Below, in pieces: positions 5,733 through 19,601 of a stretch of DNA of 20,404 bases (position 1 is its first letter; every line of letters begins with the position of its first letter). This DNA comes from a virus. Under the pieces are notes generated by a model, which was not told the DNA's origin, did no database searches, and saw only the letters and a program-made list of their open reading frames with translations. Location of the stretch: positions 1-20,404 of IMG/VR virus record IMGVR_UViG_3300008448_000859; one strand, 5' to 3'. Position numbers and translations under genes: made by a program.

Positions 5733-5746
5733 TAAGACTCCTTAAT

Positions 5747-5773
5747 CTCTCTATATATATCCACTCTTGTCAA
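5747..5773 (-). promoter_or_regulatory. Leftward promoter-like element before the tail-fibre gene
   Basis: On the minus strand TTGACA (5773-5768) is followed after 5 bases by GGATATATATAGAGAG (5762-5747). The same arrangement with identical spacing occurs upstream of the giant gene at 12427-12453. TTGACA matches a sigma-70 -35 box, but no good -10 box lies 16-18 bases downstream, so either the -10 is unusual or this is a phage-specific promoter. The position 15 bases before the fibre start suits an internal late promoter. Confidence 0.45.
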
Positions 5774-9100: not shown

Positions 9101-12100
9101 CGCTTGATTCAAATACTTCTGCTGCGTCATATGTAGTTCGCGCAGGGGAGAACTTAGTACCGCCGGTTGGCTGCATCGTTGACCTAGCAATATCAACCAG
9201 GCTTTGTTCGTCCGGATCAAGGACGGTCCGCGCTCGATGTGGTGTTCCAGCCTCAATCTCCGCATCAATCTGTCGGATAAGAGCCCTTCCCCTTTCTAGC
9301 TCAGCGTCGGTGATCCCGCCGTGCATAAGGCCAAAGAACTGGTCGCCGCTGGCAACTCTACCAGGCCTATCAATGCCCTGCTCTACGCCAAGGAGGTCCC
9401 CAAGAACCCATCGTCGTGGCTCATCTGGGGTGTCGATGTCTGCCAGATACCTATCTGCAAGGGTACCTAGGTTTGGGAAGTTACCGTCAGAGTCAGCAAC
9501 AAGGCCGGCAGCAATGCCTTCAGGCCAGTCTGTTGCAGATGCAGACACGTCTACATCTCGAACCCTGAGTACCGCCCTGCCTTCGTGAGTGAATGGCGTA
9601 AGGTCTCCTGGGAGCACTTCATCAACACCAAAGTCCGATCCTCTTTTAGCCTTTCCCTCACCACCCTGGCTAAACGTTTTCTGCGTGCCTGTGTCGATGT
9701 AGATGACATCCCCGTTCTCGTCCATGGTTGGAATTAGCTTCCTGCTAGGGATTCCGTCTCTATCGCGCACGGTAATTCGCACAAGCTCGCCGGTTTTCGC
9801 AAAAGACAGTGGGATCATGGCCACTGTTCCGCGTCTACCCATAGGATCAACAAGTGGGAGCGTGTGCTTGACTGCAGGGAATACGTGTGGGTCGATATCA
9901 ATGAGCAATTTCGAGAATACGTCAGGCCCAGCGATTGAGGAGATGTCAACCTCGCTACCAATGGCGAATGGGCTAGTTACCGAGCCTCCATTTGTGCGGA
10001 TAACCTGAACTAGAGGGCTATCGGCAAGCAAGACAACAATGCCGTCTTCACCAATGAGGCGAGAGGTACCCTTCCCGTCAGAAACTATGAAATCAGGGAA
10101 CTTATTTCGATCAATACGGGCAATAACTACCTGCTCTTTTGGCAAAAGAAGGCGTCGTCGGGTTACTTCTGACTCTACCACCTTCCTGTCTGTGGTATAC
10201 GTAATGTTGTCCCCAACACCAATGTCGCTATCAAGCGTTAACCCGTCATCCCAGGTCTTGCTGCTGTCGTCAAAGCCATTTTGGGCCAAATGGTCCTTCA
10301 GGGCCTTGATAATACTGCCCTCTAGCTTAAAGTCCCGCTTGATTTTGATACCTGACCTGTGGTGGATGCCGGTCGTTGGGTCAGTTGTAAGGATAAACCC
10401 GATTGCAGCCCTAGTCGAGTCAGGGTCTGGGTTCATTGTGTTCACAAACGAAGGAACATCGATGCCCTGTACGTCAACCTCCTGCCACCTTGGGTCGATA
10501 AGTCCCGCAAGGTCAAGAGCATACCGTCGACGGCTCCTTGTTTCGTAGTTAAGTACGTTGTTTGTTGTGAAATACTGGTCGTTTGCAGTTAGTGGAGACC
10601 ACGATGGGCGAGGAATCTCGCCAGACTCAGCGATAACTGTCTTAATATCTTCCCCAGTGAGCTCTTTAACGCGAGCAGCAAGCTCATCTGTAATAAACTC
10701 TAGGTTATCTACGAACGTTTGAACCGGCTTACCTGTCGGTTTTCGTGGGTCGAAGTTGATTGTTCGCTTCTCCGTGATGTCGGAGTCTAGCTCTGTGATT
10801 AGCTTGGTGAGCACCTCCAGGGCCGGGGCCACTTCTGGGCGGCGCAAGGCTCCTCCGCCCTTCAGCTCTTGAATAGTTTGAGTGATTCTTTCAATAATGC
10901 GCTGCTGGATCCCTACGTTTTCCCCTTCTCGCGTGCCGAAGGATAGTGGAGTCCAGTCAGAATCGCGTGTCGCTGGGATTTCACGACGGATACCCCTAAT
11001 GGTTTCGTCTTCAATGCCAATGCTACGAAGGATCGCGTCAAACCTCTTGCGTACCTCTTTTAGCCTTGGGTTCTTTTCGAACTCTGCCTCGCTAACAAAG
11101 CCAATGCCGTAGTGCAACAGTCGAATGCGCATGGCAAGAGACCCTCTGCTTACGCTCTCGGGGTCATTAAGCATGTTCCTGGCGTTGATTCCCTGAACGC
11201 CACTCTCACCTGAGATGTATCGTTCGTACAGGTTATACAGGTCGTCTTCCGGTGTGAGGGTACCGTACGTAAGCCGCTCGTACAAGATCTGCTGAAGATC
11301 CTTAATGCGTTTCCGCCGTGCGATTTCTTTAGCAATCTTAATGTTGTCTTCGTTTTCTGATTCGGACCTTGTGGGCCTATTGATCTCTTCGTCTGTCCTG
11401 GCCGTTCGGCCACCGAAGTACCTCGCCTCAGCCCGGTCAATGCTGGCGTCCTCACGCGTACCGGACACAGCTGCGTCAGCTTCCTGAAGCATGGCCAGCT
11501 CGTCAGGTGAGAGACCAGATTGACCGAGGGTCGACGCCGTTGTTGTTTTTTGGGGGGTCTCAGGCGCAGGTTCAGGGGTAGGAGCTTCTGGTACCGTGGC
11601 CTCAACACCGGAACTACCGCTGCGCCATGCCTGAAGCTGCTCTGGGGTGAGTGAGGCCTCCCAGGCATCTAGCTCTGGGATTTGCCCAGTAAACGGGAAG
11701 TCTCCACCATTGAGATACCCGTTTTTGTCTAGCCCATACTCTCTGGCCTTGGGGCTATTTAGTACCTCTTGTGGAATCTGGGGGCGGACTACCGGGCCAG
11801 CAGCCTCCGGGAGGGGTGTAGGAGCCACGGAGGCAAGAGTTTCCTGTGCCGGGGGTGTCTCCACCGCTCCTGGGGCCATTTCCGGTACTGGGGCCTGCGT
11901 AGCGGCCTCTTGTGCTTGGATTACTGCCGGGCTGTTCTGGGCCGTGAGCTTCTCTGTTAGGAACCCCTCGATAGCCTTGGCCGGGATCTTGCCCTTGGTG
12001 GAGTTAGAGATGTTTTTGGATAGGTCAATGACCTTCTGGTTGAGGCCCATAGCGTCGCCGCCAGCAGCCATGCGGTCACGGATGTCTCGGAAGGCGCTGA

Positions 12101-12353
12101 CGAACGCTGGGTTGCCCTTGATGACCTTGGCAATCTCGGCCTCGAATGCTACCTCGGCGGCCTGACCGGCTGACTGTCCTACCTCAGGGGGAACAGGAGT
12201 AGCCCCAGCTGCCGGTGCGGAGGGTGCGGCAGCAGCTGGGGTCTTAGGTGCCTTGGGCGCAGCCTTACCTTCGATCTGCTCGTCAACGACCTGGTTGGCG
12301 TTCTTCAGACCTTCTTCTAGCTGCTTCTGGATCTTGGTGTTCTTCTTTGCCAT
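6168..12353 (-). CDS. Giant (2061-residue) putative virion/DNA-ejection protein
   Basis: The product is the first of the leftward late operon. The first ~280 residues are Ala/Pro-rich and low complexity, apart from a small folded-looking patch (KNGYLNGGDFPFTGQIPEL). The long middle (~290-1900) is mixed alpha/beta and charged, without any protease, lysozyme or polymerase motif I can name. The last ~150 residues (from ~1912) hold Gly/Ala-rich hydrophobic stretches (GGFIGGGLLTLGMAGL, then IGGFGGAAAGAVAG and FAGGMAGSVAGSAAADAL at ~1977-2021). These look like a glycine-zipper membrane-inserting region, followed by an acidic tail. Size, operon position and the membrane-like end resemble internal virion or ejection proteins of podoviruses. 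A polyvalent effector delivered with the DNA is an alternative. The start is ATG 12353 with AAAGGAAG before it. Confidence 0.6.
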   Translation of the reverse strand: MAKKNTKIQKQLEEGLKNANQVVDEQIEGKAAPKAPKTPAAAAPSAPAAGATPVPPEVGQSAGQAAEVAFEAEIAKVIKGNPAFVSAFRDIRDRMAAGGDAMGLNQKVIDLSKNISNSTKGKIPAKAIEGFLTEKLTAQNSPAVIQAQEAATQAPVPEMAPGAVETPPAQETLASVAPTPLPEAAGPVVRPQIPQEVLNSPKAREYGLDKNGYLNGGDFPFTGQIPELDAWEASLTPEQLQAWRSGSSGVEATVPEAPTPEPAPETPQKTTTASTLGQSGLSPDELAMLQEADAAVSGTREDASIDRAEARYFGGRTARTDEEINRPTRSESENEDNIKIAKEIARRKRIKDLQQILYERLTYGTLTPEDDLYNLYERYISGESGVQGINARNMLNDPESVSRGSLAMRIRLLHYGIGFVSEAEFEKNPRLKEVRKRFDAILRSIGIEDETIRGIRREIPATRDSDWTPLSFGTREGENVGIQQRIIERITQTIQELKGGGALRRPEVAPALEVLTKLITELDSDITEKRTINFDPRKPTGKPVQTFVDNLEFITDELAARVKELTGEDIKTVIAESGEIPRPSWSPLTANDQYFTTNNVLNYETRSRRRYALDLAGLIDPRWQEVDVQGIDVPSFVNTMNPDPDSTRAAIGFILTTDPTTGIHHRSGIKIKRDFKLEGSIIKALKDHLAQNGFDDSSKTWDDGLTLDSDIGVGDNITYTTDRKVVESEVTRRRLLLPKEQVVIARIDRNKFPDFIVSDGKGTSRLIGEDGIVVLLADSPLVQVIRTNGGSVTSPFAIGSEVDISSIAGPDVFSKLLIDIDPHVFPAVKHTLPLVDPMGRRGTVAMIPLSFAKTGELVRITVRDRDGIPSRKLIPTMDENGDVIYIDTGTQKTFSQGGEGKAKRGSDFGVDEVLPGDLTPFTHEGRAVLRVRDVDVSASATDWPEGIAAGLVADSDGNFPNLGTLADRYLADIDTPDEPRRWVLGDLLGVEQGIDRPGRVASGDQFFGLMHGGITDAELERGRALIRQIDAEIEAGTPHRARTVLDPDEQSLVDIARSTMQPTGGTKFSPARTTYDAAEVFESSEDGWQVKHRERREALVRTPEEGDAVLNSVGDGEILLSSEPITADVEKKLRVLKADLLTLLKVRATKAFWDSKNSKSGERKVEEIVDFAPRIAAIRAELVRVGVTEAAYQQYLIDAASSVAPFDNPEDEAFFRQEMEKEVRRITMSEVTPVTSSGGYGVSRGFGPGNSTFLSPEDLGLDSLNRLDQIAYSIARTMTMDHLAARKGAPQTSMESLFSELPDDSTGTEDNELTDAIKDMGSDVEKIVNLAEDDPEALRVTPETKKLAAELRKTKDPMFRSLIVALMENGSDMRAVTDSAYPDAFAKAVLQQDKQKPKGEREFKPRGSKDSITRGLLPDGSKDPYDIRMQELWYEYASNNAENIGRKIGKTIKRVMVPSDTETSLAVGLSPAMRPSVELRGLLSGLTKEQIQTVAQRAYTAFSIFAARDDAGDGWVRFINNVLHADEVSRLISSEWEASGRRMILVNNAMVLTEGGEIPDLKTQSGGDIGILTSDEVDRIRESSDLGNGYVQFAEDNQMNFIVIKERGPAGIKYQTVYIVKLNDKQRKNPTMALDFSDVEELTMKYGYQPFADEMQPSQTEDRIKTFLKETGGDRIFEVVMDPAGTGRYTLGIKADRDNTFDFMIKEMERLSDSQRIKKYKMIIDALVKYKFYQDINQMAIDSGAEAPFADITLKRVMVEVESILKDAKGVTTFGDTSGPFGIRVAMNLKNKDLPSDSIIPRILTEETIDGPMTVEERIARAIAKIDDAPAVGEDPMLDAALEERTIRNKEITDELTKPRLGGPGGSRRRVETDSTKALARTARAMLRSGKLNDLLNSGPSKINNALNSRTGGFIGGGLLTLGMAGLTQGMRDKEREDMVKTGLAFEALGAVSPALSNAAALGFTAMNKGDMLRTLINIIGGFGGAAAGAVAGTAVLPVGGSFAGGMAGSVAGSAAADALYSQFAGGGSTGPRVPYNTATLNEQAVPEEEDPFNVFKGLGG

Positions 12354-12364
12354 TCTTCCTTTGC

Positions 12365-12379
12365 ACCCTCTAAGAGGGT
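12365..12379. repeat. Perfect inverted repeat ACCCTCT-A-AGAGGGT
   Basis: Seven-base arms around a single central base lie just before the giant gene's ribosome binding site. The half-site TAGAGGGTA recurs at 12410-12418. It could be an operator or a short mRNA hairpin in the late leader; the function is inferred only. Confidence 0.5.
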
Positions 12380-12383
12380 AAGA

Positions 12384-12397
12384 CTCTCTATATATCT
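12384..12397 (-). promoter_or_regulatory. Third, partial copy of the late promoter-like core
   Basis: On the minus strand this reads AGATATATAGAGAG, closely matching the core of the elements at 5747-5762 and 12427-12442. There is no TTGACA at the matching distance upstream. It may be a second weaker start site or the transcribed part of the leader. Confidence 0.3.
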
Positions 12398-12417
12398 ATA
12401 AAACCGTATTAGAGGGT

Positions 12418-12440
12418 ATATAACTACTCTCTAGTTATAT
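12418..12440. repeat. Perfect inverted repeat ATATAACTA-ctctc-TAGTTATAT (operator candidate)
   Basis: Nine-base arms are separated by 5 bases, overlapping the downstream half of the leftward promoter-like element. A dimeric repressor or activator binding here would control late transcription. The overlap with the promoter core supports a regulatory role, but no binding protein is identified in the window. Confidence 0.45.
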
Positions 12441-12453
12441 CCAATCGTGTCAA
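12427..12453 (-). promoter_or_regulatory. Leftward late promoter-like element before the giant gene
   Basis: On the minus strand TTGACA (12453-12448), five bases, then GGATATAACTAGAGAG (12442-12427). Layout and spacing match the element at 5747-5773 before the fibre gene. It lies ~75-100 bases before the giant gene's ATG and is the best candidate for the main late promoter. Confidence 0.5.
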
Positions 12454-12532
12454 GGGTTCCTGCACATTAAGGTTCCTTATCAAAGGGGTATGTCCAGTTG
12501 GGAGGTAGGGTAATCCCCCGAACAGACGGGGT

Positions 12533-12569
12533 ATTTGGAAAGGCCCTCACGGGACCCCCCTTTCCAAAT
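12533..12569. repeat. Long hairpin in the rightward leader
   Basis: ATTTGGAAAGG at 12533-12543 pairs perfectly with CCTTTCCAAAT at 12559-12569. A nested CCC/GGG mini-stem (12544-12553) lies within the loop. There is no T-run after it, so it is not an obvious intrinsic terminator; a leader structure or binding site is possible. Confidence 0.6.
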
Positions 12570-12578
12570 CCCTCCCTT

Positions 12579-12605
12579 ACGGGGTAGGGTTGTTCCCTAG
12601 CCCGT
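12579..12605 (+). repeat. Intergenic hairpin cassette copy 1
   Basis: Arms ACGGGGTAGGG and CCCTAGCCCGT pair with one mismatch around the loop TTGTT. They are followed by CCCGTAAAA, the conserved 3' flank of this repeat family. A second hairpin (12610-12641) follows and then the first rightward gene. Confidence 0.65.
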
Positions 12606-12609
12606 AAAA

Positions 12610-12641
12610 CCCGCACAAACCTGGTCACCCAGGTGTGCGGG
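12610..12641 (+). repeat. Second, bulged hairpin of cassette 1
   Basis: CCCGCAC pairs with GTGCGGG (outer stem) and ACCTGG with CCAGGT (inner stem). The 5' side carries a two-base AA bulge and the loop is TCAC. It ends 46 bases before the ATG at 12687. Like cassettes 6, 8 and 9, this leader places a tetraloop-type hairpin between the primary hairpin and the ribosome site. Confidence 0.6.
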
Positions 12642-12686
12642 CTAAACGCCGAGCTGCTACTTGGCGCAAGGAAGGGGGTGGTGCTT

Positions 12687-12890
12687 ATGACGAACGTGTT
12701 CAAGCAGGTCTGCGAGATCTGCGACTTCACGTTCACCTCAACGGAGAAGCGAGAGCTTTGCTCTCTCTGTCTCCGCAAGGTGAATACGGAGGAGTCGCCT
12801 CGCCGGCCTGGTTGCGACTGTGATCAGTCGGGCAGCGGCTTCAGCCTCTGCTCGTACTGCTACACAGAGCAGGTTGGTGGAGACGCCTAG
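12687..12890 (+). CDS. Zinc-ribbon miniprotein (67 aa)
   Basis: The product has four Cys pairs: CEIC, CSLC, CDC and CSYC. This is enough for two treble-clef or zinc-ribbon sites, with charged linkers (STEKRE, NTEESPRRP). The start ATG 12687 is chosen over an in-frame ATG at 12633 because GAAGGGGG lies at the same distance as the AGAAAGGGGGTGAT sites of the neighbours, and because the upstream stretch is structured leader. It is the first gene of the rightward block. The family is unknown; DNA, RNA or protein binding through zinc is inferred. Confidence 0.75.
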   Translation: MTNVFKQVCEICDFTFTSTEKRELCSLCLRKVNTEESPRRPGCDCDQSGSGFSLCSYCYTEQVGGDA

Positions 12891-12910
12891 GGCCTAGCAG
12901 GGCCATTAGC

Positions 12911-12937
12911 ACGGGTGGGGGGTGTACCCTCACCCGT
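12911..12937 (+). repeat. Intergenic hairpin cassette copy 2
   Basis: ACGGGTGGGGG pairs with CCCTCACCCGT over 11 positions (one G-T) around the loop GTGTA. It is followed by AGAAAGGAGGTAGATC and the ATG at 12954. This is the strongest copy. Confidence 0.75.
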
Positions 12938-12953
12938 AGAAAGGAGGTAGATC

Positions 12954-13154
12954 ATGGGTATATGGTATGAGAAGTGCGACATGTGTGGCGAGCTGTTCGA
13001 TCTCGCTGTCATGGTGCGGTATCGCGGATACGACCGCAATACCGGAGAACCAGAGCCGGACAATATCTGGCGCTGGGTAGATAAGAAGTGCCACGCGTGG
13101 GCCGAGAAGTACGGCCAGGATCTCGCGGATGAGCACAACAGAATCAATAGCTGA
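12954..13154 (+). CDS. Small zinc-finger-like protein (66 aa)
   Basis: The product starts MGIWYEKCDMCGELFDL and later has KKCHAWAEKYGQ, giving a CxxC pair plus CH as possible zinc ligands. YxKCxxCxxxFDL is shared with the 44-residue protein at 18951, suggesting a paralogue. A strong AGAAAGGAGGT precedes the ATG. The TGA stop lies inside the next hairpin cassette, so a ribosome terminating here would disturb that structure. Function unknown. Confidence 0.75.
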   Translation: MGIWYEKCDMCGELFDLAVMVRYRGYDRNTGEPEPDNIWRWVDKKCHAWAEKYGQDLADEHNRINS

Positions 13155-13168
13155 GGGATGTACCCTCA
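13152..13168 (+). repeat. Intergenic hairpin cassette copy 3
   Basis: TGAGGG and CCCTCA form a six-pair stem with loop ATGTA. The first three bases are the stop codon of the upstream gene. CCGTAGAAAGGAGGTGAT follows, then the ATG at 13192. Confidence 0.7.
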
Positions 13169-13191
13169 ACCGTAGAAAGGAGGTGATATAG

Positions 13192-13467
13192 ATGCCACAC
13201 TTTATGTGCACAGTGTGCAACAGGCGCAGGCCTACCCCAATCGTTGAAGGCAACGGACTCGAGCACGAAGAGCTCGGTTGGGTATGCCTGGACTGCTTGC
13301 ACCACTACACGTTTGAAGCTTTGCGAATGATCGCAAAGCTCAACACGTGCAGCAACTGCAGCATCAAAGGTACCGATATCGACGGTGGTTGGTTCAACCA
13401 GGAGAAGGATTGGTACTGCGATCTCTGCACATACGAGCTCCACGGGCCTTCGGCAGGCAAGGAGTAG
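13192..13467 (+). CDS. Four-CxxC zinc-ribbon protein (91 aa)
   Basis: Cys pairs CTVC, CLDC, CSNC and CDLC are spaced so that pairs 1-2 and 3-4 could each form one zinc ribbon. The segment between them (HHYTFEALRMIAKLN) looks helical. The first half (CTVCNRRRPTPIVEGNGLEHEELGWVCLDC) resembles phage and bacterial treble-clef fingers. The ribosome site AGAAAGGAGGTGAT before the ATG is a 14-base match to the inferred 16S tail. Function unknown; a nucleic-acid-binding or host-modulating role is only inferred. Confidence 0.78.
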   Translation: MPHFMCTVCNRRRPTPIVEGNGLEHEELGWVCLDCLHHYTFEALRMIAKLNTCSNCSIKGTDIDGGWFNQEKDWYCDLCTYELHGPSAGKE

Positions 13468-13472
13468 CAAGC

Positions 13473-13505
13473 TCAATAGCTAAGGGCTGCGCCCTTATCT
13501 ATTGA
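13473..13505 (+). repeat. Intergenic hairpin cassette copy 4
   Basis: An inner stem TAAGGG/CCCTTA with loop CTGCG is extended by an outer stem TCAATAG/CTATTGA across a C-T mismatch. It begins 5 bases after the upstream stop. TTTAGAAAGGGGGTGAT follows and then the ATG at 13529. Loop and outer stem diverge from the consensus while the shape is kept. Confidence 0.65.
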
Positions 13506-13528
13506 ACTTTAGAAAGGGGGTGATACAG

Positions 13529-13759
13529 ATGTCGATTCCGAATCCCACAATCGAGCAATGCGAGCATTGCATGGGAGCAATCGAGACCGTAGGGTTTGAC
13601 TACGTAGTCTTGATTGGCGGAAGCAACGAGGCTAGTCCCGAGGCTTTCTACCATCCGTGCTGCGCGCAGATCGTTACAAAACGATATGTGCGGGACTGCT
13701 GCGAGAAGCATTATCTCGAGGGCAGAAAGGCTCGAGGTGTAGACGAAGAAGTAGAGTGA
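13529..13759 (+). CDS. Cys-rich miniprotein (76 aa)
   Basis: The product is MSIPNPTIEQCEHCMGAI and onward, with CEHC, then HPCC and DCCEKH as further zinc-ligand candidates, and a charged C-terminus. The start is ATG 13529, preceded by AGAAAGGGGGTGAT. An upstream in-frame ATG at 13502 lies in the hairpin cassette and is not used. The TGA stop lies inside the next hairpin. Function unknown. Confidence 0.72.
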   Translation: MSIPNPTIEQCEHCMGAIETVGFDYVVLIGGSNEASPEAFYHPCCAQIVTKRYVRDCCEKHYLEGRKARGVDEEVE

Positions 13760-13774
13760 GGGATGTACCCTCAC
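13756..13774 (+). repeat. Intergenic hairpin cassette copy 5
   Basis: GTGAGGG/CCCTCAC, a perfect seven-pair stem with loop ATGTA. The stop codon of the preceding gene is within the 5' arm. CCGTAGAAAGGGGGTGAT follows, then the ATG at 13797. Confidence 0.72.
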
Positions 13775-13796
13775 CCGTAGAAAGGGGGTGATATAG

Positions 13797-13871
13797 ATGA
13801 AGGACTTCATCGCAGCGGCAGTGTTCGTTGTGATCTTGTGGTTCTGCCTGGTGGTATTCTGGCAGATCTGA
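13797..13871 (+). CDS. 24-residue single-span membrane microprotein
   Basis: The short ORF encodes MKDFIAAAVFVVILWFCLVVF and WQI, essentially one hydrophobic helix. It carries the same cassette and strong AGAAAGGGGGTGAT as its neighbours, which is the main reason to call it real. The stop TGA abuts the next hairpin. Possible roles include membrane modulation or superinfection exclusion; neither is shown. Confidence 0.6.
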   Translation: MKDFIAAAVFVVILWFCLVVFWQI

Positions 13872-13913
13872 GGGTAGGGACTATCCCTATCCCGTAAAAT
13901 GGGGGAGACCCCA
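13872..13913 (+). repeat. Intergenic hairpin cassette copy 6 (two hairpins)
   Basis: The first stem is GGGTAGGG/CCCTATCCC with a one-base bulge and loop ACTAT (13872-13893), followed by CGTAAAA. The second is TGGGG-GAGA-CCCCA (13900-13913), with a GNRA-type tetraloop. AGGAAGGAG and the ATG at 13927 follow. Confidence 0.65.
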
Positions 13914-13926
13914 GGAAGGAGACATT

Positions 13927-14265
13927 ATGCCAGTGGCATATGTCAAGCGGGCCCTAGTTCAGGGCGATATGGAGCACGAAGGGGCGAAAGCCGCCCCGAA
14001 GGGCTTCAATGGGTCTTGGGATATCAGGTATGATTCCAAGACCGGCGCCCCTATGCGCCTGTTCACGATTGAGGAGCGCTCAATCGATGAGACAGGCAAG
14101 ACCAAGGTGACCGGTTATTTCAACTGCGTCGCCAAGGGTGAGCTGATGGAGCAGATCGATGCTCTTCAGTGGTCTGTGGTTGAGATCGTAGCAGAGCTAC
14201 GCCACAACCGGGACACCAAGTACCTCCAGTTCGAGGTTGTAAAGGTCTCCGCAGTAGAGGCCTAA
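13927..14265 (+). CDS. Duplicated phage protein, copy A (112 aa)
   Basis: The product begins MPVAYVKRALVQGDMEHEG, contains KGFNGSWDIRYDSKTG and FTIEERSIDETGKTKVTGYFN, and ends YLQFEVVKVSAVEA. It is about 79% identical (89 of 112 positions by hand alignment) to the gene at 14584, and both have exactly 112 residues. Alternating beta-rich segments suggest a small beta-barrel or OB-like fold, but I recognise no family. GGAAGGAGACATT precedes the ATG. The most divergent region is ~70-92. A terminator-like hairpin follows 17 bases after the stop. Confidence 0.82.
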   Translation: MPVAYVKRALVQGDMEHEGAKAAPKGFNGSWDIRYDSKTGAPMRLFTIEERSIDETGKTKVTGYFNCVAKGELMEQIDALQWSVVEIVAELRHNRDTKYLQFEVVKVSAVEA

Positions 14266-14282
14266 GCGACCCCAGGTAAGAA

Positions 14283-14308
14283 GGGTGAGGGTAGCAATAC
14301 CCTCACCC
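14283..14308 (+). terminator. Terminator-like hairpin after copy A
   Basis: GGGTGAGGGTA (14283-14293) and TACCCTCACCC (14298-14308) pair perfectly over 11 bases around GCAA. The tail is CTTATCT, only weakly T-rich. Confidence 0.6.
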
Positions 14309-14421
14309 CTTATCTGGATCCGGTAAGGTCCCTGCCCTGGCCCGTAATAGCGGGTCAAGCTTTCCCAACCTGGCGAATCTATATCGAGCTTGAAAAACTT
14401 GACGGATGGGTTGGATACGAA

Positions 14422-14450
14422 AGCATACTCATACCGGCATGCCTTGTCAA
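14422..14450 (-). promoter_or_regulatory. Leftward sigma-70-like promoter candidate
   Basis: On the minus strand TTGACA (14450-14445) is followed after exactly 17 bases by TATGCT (14427-14422). The -35 is perfect and the -10 matches 4 of 6. Transcription would run antisense to copy A and the zinc-ribbon genes, so it may be fortuitous. Confidence 0.3.
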
Positions 14451-14499
14451 GTGATAAGGTAACAATGGGGTAAGCACGAGCGGTAGCGTATTACCCTTG

Positions 14500-14569
14500 G
14501 GGTGGGGTGGATCCCTCGCCCGTAAAAAACCTGCCTCATGGCAGGCTATTGTAGTCCCGCTAACGCGGG
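14500..14569 (+). repeat. Intergenic hairpin cassette copy 8 (three hairpins)
   Basis: GGGTGGGG pairs with CCTCGCCC (14500-14521) around a six-base loop and is followed by CGTAAAA. Then come CCTGCC-TCAT-GGCAGG (14530-14545) and CCCGC-TAAC-GCGGG (14556-14569). The ribosome site GAAGGAG lies at once downstream. It is the most elaborate copy and precedes paralogue B. Confidence 0.65.
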
Positions 14570-14583
14570 GGAAGGAGAAGCAA

Positions 14584-14922
14584 ATGCCAACAGCATTTGT
14601 GAAGCGTGCCCTAGTTCAGGGAGATATGGATCATGAGGGTGCCAAGCATGCGCCCAAGGGATTCAACGGGAGTTGGGATGTCAGGTACAACTCCAAGACT
14701 GGAAAGCCGATGAGGCTCTTCACAATCGAGGAGCGCAGCTCAGACGAGACTGGCAAGACCAAGGTTACAGGTTACTTCAACTGCGTAGCAGCAGAGGAAG
14801 TAATGGAAGCAATCGAAGCAGTTCAGTGGACAGAGGTAAGCCTAGTCACTGAACTCAGGTTCAACCGGGATACCAAGTACCTTCAGCTAGAGGTAGTAAA
14901 GGTTATCCCAGTAGAGGCATAG
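14584..14922 (+). CDS. Duplicated phage protein, copy B (112 aa)
   Basis: This is a paralogue of the 13927 gene with the same length and no gaps. The N-terminal 69 residues are nearly unchanged (KRALVQGDMDHEGAK, GFNGSWDVRY), while the 70-92 segment has diverged. The ATG at 14584 is chosen over an upstream in-frame start at 14497, because GAAGGAG and the hairpins lie between them and the paralogue starts at the equivalent codon. Third-position A is commoner than in copy A, so the pair has drifted or one copy came from a related phage. Function unknown; high expression is inferred from the leader. Confidence 0.82.
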   Translation: MPTAFVKRALVQGDMDHEGAKHAPKGFNGSWDVRYNSKTGKPMRLFTIEERSSDETGKTKVTGYFNCVAAEEVMEAIEAVQWTEVSLVTELRFNRDTKYLQLEVVKVIPVEA

Positions 14923-14956
14923 GGTTCACCTTAGAACCCAGTATCAACCGGATAAG

Positions 14957-14988
14957 TGGCATCCCGCGCAAGCGGGGTGCCATTTATT
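14957..14988 (+). terminator. Intrinsic terminator after copy B
   Basis: TGGCATCCCGC (14957-14967) pairs with GCGGGGTGCCA (14972-14982) over 11 positions with one G-T, loop GCAA, followed by TTTATT. Confidence 0.7.
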
Positions 14989-15007
14989 CCCAATGCCAGG
15001 CTTGAAC

Positions 15008-15018
15008 AACTTGGCGAA
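15008..15018 (+). repeat. AACTTGGCGAA dispersed motif, copy 1
   Basis: This is an exact 11-base word shared with 16297-16307 and 19672-19682. Context CTTGAAC-AACTTGGCGAA-TG, 20 bases after a terminator and 20 bases before the GTG start at 15038. Too close to the ribosome site to be an ordinary -35. Confidence 0.55.
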
Positions 15019-15037
15019 TGTGATAAGGAGATGACAA

Positions 15038-15226
15038 GTGCCTAAGTGTCCATGGTGTGAGCACATTAGCGAGCTAAAGTACCAAGGCTTCTGCTCAGCC
15101 GACTGCCTAGCGGCAGCAGGCCATGAGTATGAGCATTTCTTAGACAAGTTCAACGACTACATGGCAGGATACCCAGTAACATTCGAGAAGATGAAGAAGC
15201 ACCCTAAGAAGGAGACAGACCAATGA
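15038..15226 (+). CDS. Zinc-finger-like miniprotein (62 aa)
   Basis: The product starts MPKCPWCEHISELKYQGFCSADC: CPWC and CSADC with about 12 residues between, a pattern of small zinc-binding phage proteins. A helical charged tail ends KKHPKKETDQ. The start is GTG 15038, with AAGGAG 7 bases upstream. The TGA stop overlaps the next ATG (ATGA). It is the first of five closely packed genes (to 16229). Function unknown. Confidence 0.75.
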   Translation: MPKCPWCEHISELKYQGFCSADCLAAAGHEYEHFLDKFNDYMAGYPVTFEKMKKHPKKETDQ

Positions 15227-15450
15227 TCTGCCAAGCTATGAACGACAAGCGGTTATGTACCTATGATGGTATCCGTACCGTCAAAGGTGGCAAGCTGCTA
15301 TGTATAGTACATATAGACTCGTTCTTCAAGGGTGAACGGATCAAGTGGGCGCCGAAGCGCCTAATCTCTTGGGAAGTTGAGCGCCGCGCATCGGCAGCAG
15401 TCGAACGCCACCGCATCAACAAACTAAATGAGGAGTATAACCGTGCCTAA
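15223..15450 (+). CDS. Cys/His miniprotein (75 aa)
   Basis: The N-terminal half MICQAMNDKRLCTYDG and LLCIVHIDSFF supplies C3, C12, C27 and H30 as a plausible zinc site. The C-terminal half is a basic amphipathic helix (WEVERRASAAVERHRINKL). Its ATG overlaps the preceding stop by 4 bases, with AAGGAG upstream. Zinc-dependent nucleic-acid binding is possible; no family recognised. Confidence 0.72.
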   Translation: MICQAMNDKRLCTYDGIRTVKGGKLLCIVHIDSFFKGERIKWAPKRLISWEVERRASAAVERHRINKLNEEYNRA

Positions 15451-15631
15451 TGAACCGTATGTAACAATCAGTTGTATCAACTGCGGCAAGCTAAGAGTAT
15501 ATAGAGATTACTTTGGGAACTGGATTAGAATAGTAGAGTTGCCTAAGTTCTGCGATGATTGCGGAGAAGCATACCTCGCAAGCTATATAGAGTATGTAGT
15601 TCCAACATCAGAGAAAGGAGGTAATCAATAA
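15443..15631 (+). CDS. Zinc-ribbon miniprotein (62 aa)
   Basis: CINCGK near residue 11 and CDDCG near residue 38 form a two-CxxC zinc ribbon separated by a beta-rich YRDYFGNWIRI segment. The start GTG 15443 is preferred over ATG 15428: GAGGAG (15430-15435) lies 7 bases before the GTG, and the ATG would overlap this ribosome site. The gene overlaps its upstream neighbour by 8 bases. Its stop TAA shares one base with the next ATG. Function unknown. Confidence 0.72.
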   Translation: MPNEPYVTISCINCGKLRVYRDYFGNWIRIVELPKFCDDCGEAYLASYIEYVVPTSEKGGNQ

Positions 15632-15738
15632 TGGATTTAGCAGCATTCCTATGGACAGTAATCGCGTCTATCATAGGCACTGTCACTGGCATCATCGTAT
15701 TGTCAGTGCTAGATAAAGCCTACAATGTATTCAAGTAA
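15631..15738 (+). CDS. 35-residue membrane microprotein
   Basis: The product MDLAAFLWTVIASIIG-TVTGIIVLSVLDKAYNVFK is one hydrophobic span with a short basic cytoplasmic-type end. AGAAAGGAGGT lies ~10 bases before the ATG, and TAATG couples it to the upstream gene. The downstream RadC-like gene begins 11 bases later. Strong ribosome site and tight packing support it. Role unknown. Confidence 0.62.
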   Translation: MDLAAFLWTVIASIIGTVTGIIVLSVLDKAYNVFK

Positions 15739-15749
15739 GGAGAAAGATA

Positions 15750-16229
15750 ATGTTGTATCAGAAGTATGAGTTCACAATCACAAGGAAGGAACTCAACCCA
15801 AGAGACATGCGGATTGAGACCCCAGCCAAAGCAGTAGAATACTTCAGAGAGTTCGCATATGAGGCTAGCCAAGAGTCATTGTTCGTAGTTGTATTGGATG
15901 GCCGCAACAATCTGATTGGTATCCAAGAGGTATACCGTGGCACGGCAACTGGTACAAGCGTCCGCATTGCGGAGCTATTCACACCGGTATTGCTAGCTCA
16001 TGGTGTTGGTATGGTTGTAGTCCACAACCACCCAAGTGGTGACCATCATCAGTCAGATGAGGATGTCAGACTAACAAGTGACCTAGTAAAAGCTGCTAGG
16101 ATTATGGACATTGAGATGCTTGATCATCTTGTCATTGGCAAAGACAAGCATACTAGCATCAGGTCTATTATGCCTGGCATGTGGGATCCATTCGATAACA
16201 TCGAGGAAGAAACCATCTTCGAAGGATAA
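15750..16229 (+). CDS. radC: RadC-like JAMM/MPN-domain protein
   Basis: The 159-residue product carries a canonical JAMM signature: E42, then H92-N-H94-PSGDHHQ-S102-x-x-D105 (HxHx7SxxD), in the usual RadC context VHNHPSG...S..D..LT..L..A. DHLVIG follows. The N-terminal helix-hairpin-helix of full RadC is absent, so it is the MPN domain alone. RadC proteins are common in mobile elements; despite the name, a role in DNA repair is not established, and JAMM domains are zinc hydrolases. TAAGGAG precedes the ATG. A hairpin follows after 15 bases. Domain call strong, role unknown. Confidence 0.9.
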   Translation: MLYQKYEFTITRKELNPRDMRIETPAKAVEYFREFAYEASQESLFVVVLDGRNNLIGIQEVYRGTATGTSVRIAELFTPVLLAHGVGMVVVHNHPSGDHHQSDEDVRLTSDLVKAARIMDIEMLDHLVIGKDKHTSIRSIMPGMWDPFDNIEEETIFEG

Positions 16230-16244
16230 CCAAAGGAGCAGTGA

Positions 16245-16270
16245 TGGGGTAGCCAGAGTAGGCTACCCCA
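16245..16270 (+). terminator. Terminator-like hairpin after the RadC-like gene
   Basis: TGGGGTAGCC and GGCTACCCCA form a perfect 10-pair stem with loop AGAGTA. Only two Ts follow directly (TTACTCT), so termination may be partial. Confidence 0.55.
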
Positions 16271-16296
16271 TTACTCTCAGTAAAAGCCGACTGAAT

Positions 16297-16307
16297 AACT
16301 TGGCGAA
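16297..16307 (+). repeat. AACTTGGCGAA dispersed motif, copy 2
   Basis: Exact 11-base word in the context CTGAAT-AACTTGGCGAA-AGC, 27 bases after the hairpin at 16245-16270 and before cassette copy 9. Confidence 0.55.
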
Positions 16308-16339
16308 AGCGCAAGCGATCGGCGCGTGCTCTTGGTTGT

Positions 16340-16385
16340 GGCGGGGGGTGTTCCCTCGCCCGTAGTAGAAGCTGCCTTAAGGCAG
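16340..16385 (+). repeat. Intergenic hairpin cassette copy 9 (two hairpins)
   Basis: GGCGGGGG pairs with CCCTCGCC (one G-T) around loop GTGTT (16340-16360), followed by CGTAGTAGAA. Then a perfect palindrome CTGCCTTAAGGCAG (16372-16385) runs straight into AAGGAGG and the ATG at 16398. It is about 1.8 kb from the other copies. Confidence 0.7.
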
Positions 16386-16397
16386 AAGGAGGAATCA

Positions 16398-16808
16398 ATG
16401 GACTTACCAAACAGGGTACAAGTAGAACTTGAGTTCGGATTCAGCGAGGAAAAAGCACCGGATGCTCTTGCAATCCTTATCTCAGGGTACTATATGTTCA
16501 AGTCTCTAGGAGATGCACCTCGCAGGTTCCGAGAGAACTATCCAGAAGTATTCAACTCTTCTGAAGAGTCGATGATGGCTGATGGTTCAACCAGGATTGA
16601 GGCCGAGGCGCAAACAATCGCAGCGCTTGAGCAGTACTTCGATCTTCTTGGCAAGATGGTATACATGCTAGGTTATGAGCTAGCAGAAGTAATGGGTGTA
16701 GACTATCCAAGAGATGAAGACATCTCAGGACATCGCTTAGTAGTAGACGGTATGAATAAAGAGGAGGTGATGAATGAACTAAACCGCATCATGAATATCA
16801 ATAACTAA
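16398..16808 (+). CDS. Hypothetical phage protein (136 aa)
   Basis: The product opens MDLPNRVQVELEFGFSEEKAP. It has a likely helix (DALAILISGYYMFKSLG), a second (TIAALEQYFDLLGKMVYMLGYELAEVMG) and an acidic, helical C-terminus. It is probably a soluble alpha-helical protein; no known motif. The start is ATG 16398, directly after AAGGAGG; the longer in-frame version from 16326 would read through the hairpin cassette and is rejected. First gene of a unit running to 17917. Confidence 0.72.
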   Translation: MDLPNRVQVELEFGFSEEKAPDALAILISGYYMFKSLGDAPRRFRENYPEVFNSSEESMMADGSTRIEAEAQTIAALEQYFDLLGKMVYMLGYELAEVMGVDYPRDEDISGHRLVVDGMNKEEVMNELNRIMNINN

Positions 16809-16817
16809 GGAGGAAGA

Positions 16818-17036
16818 ATGGAAGAAGATAACATTTGTGATGGAGTTAATCATCACGTGAAGGTAGATTTTATTACCTTCATCTCACACCCGGACAGTGT
16901 CACCCGTCAGTGGGTCAATGGAACAACTGATACTGTGATCAATACGATCAAACAGTATCGAGCGGCCAAAGAACCAGACGTTGACATGTTCATTGATTAT
17001 TGCTGCGAAGCATGTAAGGAGGCAAGTAATGGCTGA
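16818..17036 (+). CDS. Hypothetical small protein (72 aa)
   Basis: The product is acidic (MEEDNICDGVNHHVKVDFITF) with C7, a HH pair and a C-terminal CCEACKEA; these Cys and His could bind a metal. The middle has a helix (TVINTIKQYRAAKE). TAAGGAGGAAG precedes the ATG. The end overlaps the next start by 8 bases. Not recognised. Confidence 0.68.
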   Translation: MEEDNICDGVNHHVKVDFITFISHPDSVTRQWVNGTTDTVINTIKQYRAAKEPDVDMFIDYCCEACKEASNG

Positions 17037-17466
17037 CATCAGCGACTTCAAAGAGCAGCTAGAGTCTGCTCAGTCTAGCATTGAATCCGCAGGGTACAAT
17101 GCAGACCAGGCAGCAGATGATGCAAGGGCTGCAGTTAGTAATGCAGACCAAGCAATCTCTATCCTTAGTAGTCTCATCGATGAGGTTGAAGGTATCATGG
17201 GTTACAGCAAGCATGATCTTGAGGTAGCAATGCGCCACCTCGGTGTCATCAACAAGCTGCAAGCTATGTTCTACAATCGACTCGACAATGTGATTGATGG
17301 CAATTACATTGAGGATAAGATGAAGTACAATAACTTCATCTCATTCCTAGAGATGATCACTGAGTCCGAGAATGGCCAGCTTGTATGGGAAAAAGCATAC
17401 AGACTGGAAGCATACTATGTCGACTCAACATATGGATATAAGACTGTAAAGTCAGAGGAGGTCTAA
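17029..17466 (+). CDS. Coiled-coil-like hypothetical protein (145 aa)
   Basis: Residues ~5-55 are an Ala/Ser/Asp/Gln-rich heptad-like helix (FKEQLESAQSSIESAG, QAADDARAAVSNADQAISILSSL). A helical domain with several aromatics follows (NKLQAMFYNRLDNV, WEKAYRLEAYYVDSTYGY). No enzyme motif. The ATG at 17029 with AAGGAGG 8 bases upstream is preferred over an in-frame ATG at 16981 that lacks a ribosome site and overlaps the upstream gene by more. Probably oligomeric; function unknown. Confidence 0.72.
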   Translation: MADISDFKEQLESAQSSIESAGYNADQAADDARAAVSNADQAISILSSLIDEVEGIMGYSKHDLEVAMRHLGVINKLQAMFYNRLDNVIDGNYIEDKMKYNNFISFLEMITESENGQLVWEKAYRLEAYYVDSTYGYKTVKSEEV

Positions 17467-17467
17467 C

Positions 17468-17917
17468 ATGGCAACCAATAAGACAGAGAAGTGTGGAGCA
17501 CCTAAGCTCAAGGAACTGAAGGCTGAGTTCAATCAGCAGGTAAGTATCCAGGTAGATAGCGCAACCGTTGTTAGCTTGATCATGCAGGCGTCATTGCCTG
17601 ATCTGGCCAAGCGCGTTGCCAAAGGTAACGGCTACAGCAACAGCGTCAACAGTGCAGTCAAAGCATTGAATGCAGCAACAGCGCTTGATCTCAAGGTAAC
17701 GGAAATCAATGATGCCTGGGATGGCTATCATGGATTCAAGGATACCCTAGAAAACGAGGGTATCCTGCGCCAGTGGCGAGCGCAGCGACCAGGCTGTGAC
17801 TTCACTGAGGGTGTAGACACATCTGATTTGTACGAGAGTACAGTCGCTGAGGTTCACATCACCTTCAGCAAGAAGTTGAAGGACAAGAAGTTCTTGGCAT
17901 CAAAGGGTGTCAAGTAA
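17468..17917 (+). CDS. Hypothetical phage protein (149 aa)
   Basis: The product is MATNKTEKCGAPKLKELKAEF and onward. A helical N-terminal half is followed by a mixed region with DAWDGYHGFKDTLENEGILRQWRAQ and a beta-like AEVHITFSKKLKDKKF end. GGAGGTCTAAC precedes the ATG. It starts 1 base after the upstream stop, so the two are probably co-translated. No family recognised. Confidence 0.7.
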   Translation: MATNKTEKCGAPKLKELKAEFNQQVSIQVDSATVVSLIMQASLPDLAKRVAKGNGYSNSVNSAVKALNAATALDLKVTEINDAWDGYHGFKDTLENEGILRQWRAQRPGCDFTEGVDTSDLYESTVAEVHITFSKKLKDKKFLASKGVK

Positions 17918-17934
17918 TAGCTAAGTAGGGTGCA

Positions 17935-17971
17935 GCCGGATAGGTAGAGGTGTGGTCACCGCCTATCCGGC
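17935..17971 (+). repeat. Long two-stage hairpin in the leader of the 17994 gene
   Basis: GCCGGATAGG (17935-17944) pairs with CCTATCCGGC (17962-17971). Inside, GGTG-TGGT-CACC forms a second stem. No T-run follows, and the ribosome site AGAAGGAG lies 11 bases downstream. It is unlike the cassette family in sequence. A weak terminator or a leader control element. Confidence 0.55.
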
Positions 17972-17993
17972 ACACGCTATAGAAGGAGTAGTT

Positions 17994-18347
17994 ATGTGCA
18001 AAGAATACAATGGCTGGGCTAACTGGGAAACATGGAATGTAGGCCTATGGATTGGTGAGGTAGATGGACTACCCGATATGATCTTCGAGCAAGCAAAGAA
18101 AGAAGTAGAAGAACAGTTCAACGATGACGAGTTCGACAAGTGGACAGCAACTAGATCATTGGCTAAGTACCTAGAAGAACTATGTCATGAAGTGTTTGAC
18201 ACTGAAGATTCATCGCCAACACAGGGGCCATTAGCAGATGCTATTGGTATGTATTACGCACAGGTACAGTGGCACGACATCGCAGAGAACTACATCGATG
18301 AAGCAGTGCAAGAGCTAGGGATTAACCCATCAGCAATCGTAGTGTAG
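17994..18347 (+). CDS. Phage protein with NGWANWETWNVGLW motif (117 aa; DUF7249-like)
   Basis: The N-terminus EYNGWANWETWNVGLWIGE matches a motif ('NGxxNxETWNVxLW') that I recall in many phage early proteins, possibly Pfam DUF7249. A helical, acidic remainder follows (EQAKKEVEEQF, SLAKYLEELCHEVF, WHDIAENYIDEAV). Its function in any phage is unknown to me. The start ATG 17994 has AGAAGGAG upstream; an in-frame ATG at 17952 lies inside the hairpin and is rejected. The gene at 18356 follows after 8 bases. Confidence 0.75.
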   Translation: MCKEYNGWANWETWNVGLWIGEVDGLPDMIFEQAKKEVEEQFNDDEFDKWTATRSLAKYLEELCHEVFDTEDSSPTQGPLADAIGMYYAQVQWHDIAENYIDEAVQELGINPSAIVV

Positions 18348-18355
18348 GAGGAATC

Positions 18356-18958
18356 ATGAACAACGTTATAGAAGCTGGAGTAACAGAGTCAGGAATCTAT
18401 TGGGAAACAAATATGGATAATGACTATGAACTAGAAAGAGACTTCTGGATCATTGCATCACGGGGTACCGGCAGGTACCTTCCAGTAGATGAAGTATGCG
18501 ATAGCATGGATGAGTTCGATGCCGCACTGAAGTCGGACACTATCGTGTACTACCAGCCACTGTTCATGCTGGCACACAGCGGTGTAAGCATCAGCCTTGG
18601 TGGGTACAATGACCCATGGGACAGCGGCCAATGCGGATTTGCTTGCATCACAAGAGCTGATGCAGACAACTGGGGCATCCTACCTCACGAGTACAAGGCA
18701 TTCCTAGAATCAGCAGTGCTGAACTATGATGCTGGCCTTAGAGGTGAGGTGTTCAGGTTCGACATCTATCTACAGAACAAGTGCAAGGAGTGCGGATCCG
18801 CTAGAACTGAGACATTAGATGGGGTAGGTGGATACGTGTACCCAGGAGGGTACCGCAAGTTCTTCGAAGAAGTAGTAGAGCCAGCCATTGCTGAGTGCGA
18901 GCGGCAGCTAGCTGAGGCAGAGCATCAGTCAGAGAAAGGAGTTAAGTCAGATGATTAG
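18356..18958 (+). CDS. Phage orphan with SGVSISLGGYNDPWDSGQCG motif (200 aa)
   Basis: The core around residues 75-95 (HSGVSISL, then DPWDSGQCGFACIT) and the later YDAGLRGEVFRFDIY belong to a protein type seen in many phages ('SGI.ms...F.cPWDSGq.Gf', '.yl.G.vy.y'), whose function I do not know. A single CKEC lies near residue 142. The C-terminus is an acidic coiled helix (EPAIAECERQLAEAEH). GGAGGAATC precedes the ATG. The end overlaps the next gene by 8 bases. Confidence 0.75.
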   Translation: MNNVIEAGVTESGIYWETNMDNDYELERDFWIIASRGTGRYLPVDEVCDSMDEFDAALKSDTIVYYQPLFMLAHSGVSISLGGYNDPWDSGQCGFACITRADADNWGILPHEYKAFLESAVLNYDAGLRGEVFRFDIYLQNKCKECGSARTETLDGVGGYVYPGGYRKFFEEVVEPAIAECERQLAEAEHQSEKGVKSDD

Positions 18959-19085
18959 TTGGCCCTATCTAGAAACACTAGGTTACGCCAAGTGTCCAGA
19001 GTGCAACAGAGTATTCGACCTAGACATAGAAGAGCAAGCAGCAGAGTGGTACTATGGCCACGACTGCTTCTTAGAGGAGGAGTAA
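18951..19085 (+). CDS. 44-residue zinc-finger miniprotein
   Basis: The product starts MISWPYLETLGYAKCPECNRVFDL and ends with GHDCFLEEE: CPEC plus HDC gives a complete zinc site in 44 residues. YAKCPECNRVFDL resembles YEKCDMCGELFDL of the 12954 gene. AGAAAGGAG lies ~11 bases before the ATG. The gene overlaps its upstream neighbour by 8 bases, and the next gene starts one base after its stop. Confidence 0.65.
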   Translation: MISWPYLETLGYAKCPECNRVFDLDIEEQAAEWYYGHDCFLEEE

Positions 19086-19086
19086 A

Positions 19087-19248
19087 ATGTGGATGCCAAC
19101 TAGCCGAGTATGTTGGGAGTGTGACCAGGCACTAGCAGAGTACGACGAGGGTCACATCGTTACTGATTTCTCTGCGTCAGCAGAAGACTGGAAGATGTAT
19201 TGTGAAGATTGCTGGCAGAGAATGTTGAAAGATAAGGAGGGCTCATGA
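19087..19248 (+). CDS. 53-residue zinc-ribbon miniprotein
   Basis: The product has CWEC near residue 9 and CEDC near residue 39, about 26 residues apart, with a charged helix at the end (WQRMLKDKEGS). The spacing equals one zinc-ribbon or treble-clef unit. GAGGAGGAG precedes the ATG. Its TGA overlaps the next ATG as ATGA. Function unknown. Confidence 0.65.
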   Translation: MWMPTSRVCWECDQALAEYDEGHIVTDFSASAEDWKMYCEDCWQRMLKDKEGS

Positions 19249-19601
19249 AGATATCAGCAGTAGAGCTAGACGACACAGATGTCGTAGAGATTTTCATTAC
19301 AGCTATGGAAGGCGGCATCGGGTACTGGGCAGTAGCTGACAACTACAAGTGGATGCACCTGTACAACGATGACACATACCGGACAGCCATCTCTCTTGGA
19401 GATGACTATGTACTAGCAGTACTATCAGACACAGAAGGCGATGACTTCAAAGATTTGAAGCTGACACCATTCGTCATCAGACGGGGTGTCAACTGGGTCA
19501 TGCATCACAGGCCTGACCTCATCAACATCAATGACATCGATGCAACAGCAGCCGATGCAATAGTTCAAGCAGGATTGTTTGACGAGATTGTATACGGCTG
19601 A
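19245..19601 (+). CDS. Phage orphan with EGGIGYWA motif (118 aa)
   Basis: The product reads MKISAVELDDTDVVEIFITAMEGGIGYWAVADNY and onward. The 'aEGGIxYWa' core is, from memory, shared by small early proteins of many actinobacteriophages of unknown role. A second half with FVIRRGVNWVMHHRPDL and ATAADAIVQAGLFDEIVYG is helical. AAGGAGG lies before the ATG, which overlaps the upstream stop. It is the last rightward gene, followed directly by the strong terminator. Confidence 0.75.
   Translation: MKISAVELDDTDVVEIFITAMEGGIGYWAVADNYKWMHLYNDDTYRTAISLGDDYVLAVLSDTEGDDFKDLKLTPFVIRRGVNWVMHHRPDLININDIDATAADAIVQAGLFDEIVYG

Follow-up and report, generated by a model that had tools for sequence, protein, structure and literature searches.

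Why should a row of small phage genes each be headed by nearly the same hairpin? The question is raised by a 20,404-base fragment of an uncultured virus (record IMGVR_UViG_3300008448_000859), the whole of which is here called the window. From 12.6 kb rightwards, a hairpin recurs in it at gene boundaries, 5' of Shine-Dalgarno (SD) sequences. Our analysis showed that this is a real family, whose base pairing is selected and whose versions differ between related lineages. At a little under an even chance, we favour reading the hairpin as a structured element of the mRNA leader, with a matching trans-acting partner that differs between lineages and is probably phage-encoded.

Eight good copies and one off-type conserved copy were found, all on the + strand, and independent repeat finding recovered the same family (repeat D2, 8 copies). 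In the coordinates of a 33-nt model, copy 1 (12576–12608, position P1) lies in an operon leader and has a 13-bp stem with one mismatch and the loop TTGTT; a second hairpin (12611–12641), a third hairpin and then the SD follow it. Copy 2 (12908–12940), with an 11-bp stem and the loop GTGTA, adjoins the SD AGAAAGGAGGT. Copies 3 (13144–13176) and 5 (13749–13781) share the arms TGAGGG/CCCTCA and the loop ATGTA, and copy 4 (13473–13505) has an inner TAAGGG/CCCTTA, the loop CTGCG and an outer helix TCAATAG/CTATTGA. Copies 6 (13866–13898, P2) and 7 (14494–14526, P3) precede two SSB-like genes. After copy 6 a second hairpin, GGGG-GAGA-CCCC, stands before the SD, and after copy 7 there are two more, with TCAT and TAAC loops. 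Copy 8 (16334–16366, P4) precedes a 136-aa gene that opens an operon with a 72-aa Cys/His gene.

Five of these eight copies are wholly intergenic; in those at 13144, 13749 and 13866 the last 6–11 nt of the upstream gene, including its stop codon, extend into the 5' arm. Before small genes the 3' arm adjoins the SD, and before larger genes one to two extra hairpins lie in between; the second hairpins and tetraloops announced for the latter in the preliminary description are indeed there. The exact pattern GGG-N5-CCCT-N2-CCCGTA occurs 6 times on the + strand of 12354–19601 and in none of 300 shuffles. Of GGG-N5-CCC hairpins in which 7 or 8 of the 8 pairs form, 7 were counted (shuffle mean 0.07, maximum 1), and a 4.5 kb coding control contains 0. 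Comparison of the window with Rfam families gave only chance matches, the best overlapping one being Clostridiales-2 (20.3 bits, gathering score 58.6). With shuffles yielding almost none and the copies found independently, the hairpin-plus-SD layout first proposed for these rightward genes is confirmed. Its details held unevenly: the CGTAR flank is present in 7 of the 8 copies, but the loop NTGTW in only 5. The label "Shine-Dalgarno" was correct but understated, since the SD of several leaders reads AGAAAGGAGGT(GAT), which complements a ...ATCACCTCCTTTCT tail of 16S rRNA in full. This complementarity fits a Gram-positive, perhaps actinobacterial, host.

DNA and protein searches identified six close relatives of the window (L005, L009, L013, L016, L017 and L018). 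Pattern matches in L004, L006–L008, L010–L012 and L014 were set aside, as they were one unrelated common sequence without the leader context. The off-type copy (14321–14365, +), followed by no gene, is conserved in L005, L016 and L018. It had been called a degenerate copy, which is only partly right: the site is conserved, but it is a distinct hairpin with the motif CCTGGCCCGTAA in its loop. Its stems read CTTGCCC/GGGGCAAG in L005 versus CTTCCC/GGGGAAG in L016.

Is the pairing itself maintained? Five phages supplied 27 distinct copies, in which 80.5% of cells pair and 20 two-sided changes were counted. The covariation score is 0.244; shuffles gave 0.126, and sliding the partners gave 0.072 at most. 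Own arms fit better than swapped arms: the observed value is equalled or exceeded by 0.18% of 40,320 permutations within the window alone and by 0 of 5000 over the 27 copies. In the copy at 13473 the outer helix has been exchanged as a whole, TCAATAG/CTATTGA standing for TACGGG/CCCGTA with pairing kept. Orthologous copies before the SSB gene compensate as well (GGGTAGGG/CCCTATCCC in the window, GGAGAGGG/CCCTCTCC in L016 and TTCAGGG/CCCTGA in L018), as do the leaders of one small gene, gene F, in two close relatives (GTGGGG/CCCTCAC versus GTAGGGG/CCCTTAC). Covariation, own-arm fit and the replacement of an outer helix together indicate that base pairing is selected, and the earlier claim that structure rather than sequence alone is under selection is thus borne out.

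A covariance model, R1, was built from five phages including the window. It found matches in four further phages, both orthologous and extra copies, before gene starts. All strong matches in the 7 related records are + strand leaders and none lies within a gene body, as the preliminary description had led one to expect of such a search.

What such a hairpin does is a separate matter. Since the array hairpins begin at or inside the preceding stop codon, no separate promoter would fit there, and a polycistronic mRNA would include the hairpin. An intrinsic terminator was rejected, because the stems are followed by GTARAA and by no U-run. A role in antitermination (nut- or put-like) or termination is very improbable. 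At P3 and P4 the element does come after a terminator-like hairpin in an operon leader, and its lineage-specific form recalls boxB, but the terminator scan does not call the sense hairpins, and nut sites would not be expected in one copy per small gene with no terminators in between. The suggestion of a simple translation enhancer acting by SD exposure is unsupported by folding predictions: deleting the hairpin gave no consistent fall in predicted SD accessibility, and genes without a hairpin were similar.

Further evidence came from sister phages. About 50 further contigs were gathered by searching with conserved downstream proteins, and R1 found no confident copy in them (3 weak matches, best E 0.013). 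Their leaders carry different hairpins at the same gene starts, before the SSB-like gene (P2), the next operon (P3) and the 136-aa gene (P4). At least six lineage versions were recognized, families II–VI being delimited by eye and by repeated 9-mers: I, CCCTCRCCCGTAR (the window group); II, GGTCTGCCCCCCGWAG; III, GGTTCTCCCAAA; IV, TGACTCCCTCGTA; V, GTTGCTCTCCCGTAT; and VI, GTCCGCTGGACTNCCCTCCATA. Element similarity averages 14.4 between positions within a genome and 8.0 at the same position across lineages, with shuffles at 6.4 (within versus across, p = 2e-18, the pairs being non-independent). As similarity within genomes exceeds that between orthologous sites, the copies change together, and each lineage's version has been replaced at all sites together. 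Versions differ even between sister phages that share individual proteins at up to 99% identity.

Neither this lineage-wise change nor the fact that specific proteins follow the version was part of the preliminary description. For 18 genes in up to 22 genomes, we asked whether protein identity separates same-version from different-version pairs. The SSB-like protein S1 (112 aa; 13927–14265, +) reached an area under the curve (AUC) of 1.000, with the nearest neighbour of the same version in 16/16 cases. For the 72-aa Cys/His protein, here called w16818 (16818–17036, +), the AUC was 0.997 and the nearest-neighbour score 20/20. The 16 other genes gave AUC values of 0.43–0.83. Genome G003 (version I) and genome G010 (version II) illustrate this: they share ERF at 99%, DnaB at 97%, the 15038 homolog at 97% and A3 at 89%, against only 28% for w16818 and 30% for SSB. 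Conversely, G003 and the distant G006, both of version I, are 61% identical in w16818 and 63% in SSB, though 34% in A3.

With genome background removed, partial correlation with element similarity is 0.74 for SSB and 0.65 for w16818, and restricting the comparison to elements that do not adjoin the gene leaves the correlation in place. Between P4 and w16818 lies the 136-aa gene, which does not track the version (partial correlation 0.07), so linkage is not the cause of the tracking by w16818. A scan of 124 shared open reading frame (ORF) clusters, the top ranks of which also include shadow frames of tracking genes, showed that few real genes follow the version: the SSB-like gene, w16818 and those for three large virion proteins (1746, 905 and about 2061 aa). 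The portal, terminase and capsid proteins do not. The 1746- and 905-aa proteins were available from only 7–8 genomes, with within-version pairs from lineage II alone. Their genes lie between the capsid and portal genes in G003, G007–G012 and G021 and are 28–42% identical across lineages, while the flanking portal and terminase genes are about 79–96% identical.

The reader of the element may most simply be one of the version-tracking proteins. S1 and its paralog S2 (14584–14922, +) are predicted to adopt an OB fold (predicted local distance difference test score, pLDDT, 88), with bacterial SSBs as best matches (7f5y, E 5e-5). The duplication is found only in family I, the sisters examined having one copy between P2 and P3. 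For w16818, a candidate partner, a bb-a-b-a fold is predicted (pLDDT 83), with an invariant H12 and CC..C.

Copies that are replaced together, genes between them that are freely exchanged and a few proteins that follow are the pattern expected of a matched cis-trans pair. In the mechanism we favour, every copy would act in cis from the 5' leader of an early phage gene. The hairpin lies either right upstream of the SD or separated from it by one to two small hairpins. Most likely it would be recognized in the mRNA, as an operator, by a trans-acting partner specific to the lineage, and this partner would set expression of the headed genes through translation start or leader stability. The likeliest partner would be phage-encoded and come from element-headed operons, that is, w16818 and/or the SSB-like protein. 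Since both are themselves encoded in such operons, autogenous control is suggested. The T4 gp32 protein, which binds single-stranded DNA, offers a precedent: its own mRNA leader has a structured element through which translation is controlled autogenously. The regulon proposed here would be autogenous in that manner, but the window element also heads unrelated genes, and the SSB-like protein is only a candidate reader.

Several observations weigh against this mechanism. G.U and A.C counts equal the expectation from column composition (18 observed, 18.3 expected; 7 and 7.0), so strand-specific pairing is not proved and wobble counts do not settle RNA versus DNA; the G.U versus A.C asymmetry was accordingly rejected as proof of an RNA level. 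In 55 of 74 copies the sense fold is the more stable one, but the two strands have similar shuffle z-scores, and the hairpins of families IV and V are weaker. The fold search with w16818 gave no significant match. The three large virion proteins track the element too, so host adaptation or an injected factor, and not w16818 or SSB, may lie behind the link. Lastly, these are metagenomic fragments, with an effective sample of about six independent lineages.

An injected factor also figures in a second explanation, which we consider rather unlikely. Bacteriophage N4 has a virion RNA polymerase that uses hairpin promoters, and SSB takes part. The element could similarly be a DNA-level hairpin or an asymmetric promoter or operator, with a phage transcription factor or an injected virion RNA polymerase as its reader, and its lineage versions would reflect promoter-polymerase co-evolution. 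Single orientation and a lineage-specific consensus agree with this, and family V copies retain 15 invariant bases despite weak stems. So does co-segregation with the SSB-like protein and the three large virion proteins, the 1746-aa one having a profile that weakly resembles a crAss-phage cargo protein (E 0.007). The likeness to N4, which rests on general knowledge on the N4 side, extends to a lineage-specific hairpin before early genes and to the involvement of SSB; the differences are that no virion RNA polymerase was detected here and that the copies are more numerous and often inside an operon. A T7/N4-type RNA polymerase as reader was not found by family, fold or motif search: PHROGs and PDB gave no polymerase match, the large proteins have no RNA polymerase motifs, and PF00940 was absent in 21 records, where control genomes gave no signal either. 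Replacement of a whole helix with pairing kept, as at 13473, suits RNA better.

Host adaptation underlies a third, unlikely explanation, in which an intercistronic hairpin, cut or bound by host RNases, with a strong SD as stabiliser, serves mRNA processing or stability. Versions would then track the host genus, as would SSB and the virion entry proteins, which are the ones expected to adapt to a host. A hairpin followed by AGAAAGGAGGT(GAT) resembles, as far as is generally known, the stabilising SD leaders of RNase J hosts. Stems of 11–13 bp are short for RNase III, though, and host machinery should not require a new 15-base consensus in each lineage. Furthermore, genes that are up to 99% identical are exchanged between phages whose versions differ. 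The bacterial genome contigs searched contained no relatives of the window.

The structured leader matched to a trans-acting partner can be taken one step further. Each lineage may have its own hairpin operator and a cognate phage-encoded reader (w16818 and/or the SSB-like protein), operators and readers resisting exchange and the genes in between moving freely; this "hairpin code" we put forward only as a tentative possibility. If true, the operator-reader pair would define compatibility groups, and any small gene could join the regulon by gaining one hairpin-SD unit. The element would show how accessory small genes can plug into a phage expression programme.

Movement of small genes is seen in the arrays. 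The cassette genes of the window, all on the + strand, are A (67 aa, 12687–12890), B (66 aa, 12954–13154), C (91 aa, Cys-rich, 13192–13467), D (76 aa, 13529–13759) and E (24 aa, hydrophobic, 13797–13871). C has homologs in other cassette slots of L013 and L016, D has homologs in L005 and L018, and genes of 25 aa similar to E are present in L005, L013 and L016. The order is A-B-C-D-E-S1 in the window, E-D-F-S1 in L005, E-C-F-S1 in L013 (the first short gene of L005 and L013 being left out), G-C-E-S1 in L016 and G-D-S1 in L018. A hairpin heads gene F in the arrays of L005 and L013; the window and L016 have gene F in another operon, where it lacks one. In L005 one hairpin was lost and its SD retained. 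Small genes have thus been gained, lost and reordered at hairpins, as the idea that they move had implied.

It is quite improbable that the element is mainly a PeSL-like recombination handle for shuffling small genes, without a regulatory role. The cassette orders (B-C-D-E, E-D-F, E-C-F, C-E and D in five relatives) would suit it, homology blocks start or stop mostly at hairpins, and genes for an ERF-type annealing protein and a Cas4-like nuclease occur in those family I phages of which enough sequence was available (L013, L018), as well as in sisters. But homology needs neither compensatory arm changes nor strict one-sided placement before an SD, and copies also precede single conserved, unshuffled genes (P2–P4). 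Under the leader-element reading, joining of cassettes would be a by-product, the hairpin-SD units providing short homology at which the ERF protein and the nuclease could act.

Which known systems come closest? They are the cluster M mycobacteriophage conserved repeats CR3/CR4 with their upstream stem-loops (PMC7953290; Estes, MT657341) and the cluster K start-associated sequences (SAS) and extended SAS (ESAS), with which the window shares layout but not sequence. In cluster M, according to the parts of PMC7953290 available to us, strong hairpins and an SD repeat stand directly before many small accessory-arm genes, and gene insertions arrive with a repeat copy. The same layout, a stem-loop and then an SD before small genes, is present in 8 window leaders when compared with those of Estes. 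There, however, the SD repeat CACACGGAGAAGGGA is invariant and the hairpins vary freely, whereas here the hairpin carries the conserved sequence; lineage-wise replacement, found here, is not described in those parts of the text. The CR3 sequence CACACGGAGAAGGGA is absent from the elements (only a 3-mismatch match at 12931; two matches in all, shuffle mean 0.65), and R1 found no match in Estes.

Cluster K repeats likewise stand just before start codons, in the non-structural arm and in one orientation, sometimes with the upstream stop codon inside and with an inverted-repeat consensus that differs between subclusters (PMC3203893). The 17-bp inverted repeats of ESAS, upstream of SAS, were reported not to support RNA pairing (PMC3203893), while those of the window covary as pairs. 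The likeness to SAS/ESAS drawn at the outset was therefore apt in concept, but the pairing evidence is opposite and cluster M is closer. The 13-bp SAS GGGATAGGAGCCC, placed 3–7 bp before starts, is absent from the window; a single match with two mismatches lies at 9274 (+), among the leftward genes, and 0.6 such matches are expected by chance.

The T4-type PeSL, said to go back to Arbiol in 2010 and Comeau in 2014, reportedly consists of an early promoter plus a terminator hairpin after a gene. The window array has neither a terminator tail nor a promoter: a scan gave no excess of sigma-70-like sites, and the sense hairpins are not terminator-like. A repeated stem-loop at gene boundaries with shuffled gene content is common to both, as judged from the citing paper (PMC4503421).

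Start-associated repeats of actinobacteriophages have been on record since 2011, yet no reader or mechanism has been assigned to them. Several versions at the same gene starts, together with the genome-wide scan, narrow the possible readers to a handful of proteins. Two candidates are small and easy to purify, which makes it directly testable what reads the elements, whether in RNA or in DNA, and for what reason, and the lineage versions form a natural set of matched and mismatched element-protein pairs.

In the left part of the window, leftward genes encode the terminase, a collagen-like collar or tail fibre protein and a 2061-aa protein without family match (6168–12353, −). The last is probably an internal virion protein; its gene is divergent from P1 and lineage-specific. 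The rightward small genes end at a leftward DnaB-type helicase gene. Cultured phage records contained no DNA or protein relatives of the window, the terminase, S1 or w16818.

The motif ACNTGGCGA is repeated in intergenic regions of the window (14368, 15009, 16298 and 19673, +; 4 found, 0.68 expected). Similar sequences, ACCTAGCGAATG and CCTGGCGATGG, lie upstream of elements in sister phages of several versions, so the motif is not lineage-specific; it is a candidate promoter or operator. Inspection by eye showed a repeat TTGACA-N-GA-N-TGGATATA upstream of leftward genes (12390–12450 and 5745–5765, −), its spacing shorter than in a normal sigma-70 promoter, and, in the sister phage L032 (4935–5010, −), a tRNA-Arg-like gene apparently within a large leftward ORF region. 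In an otherwise different 63-kb phage (L067, 5475–10435), about 8 palindromes GGGACA-N3-TGTCCCACTT were seen, most of them directly before SDs, and one shows a compensatory change.

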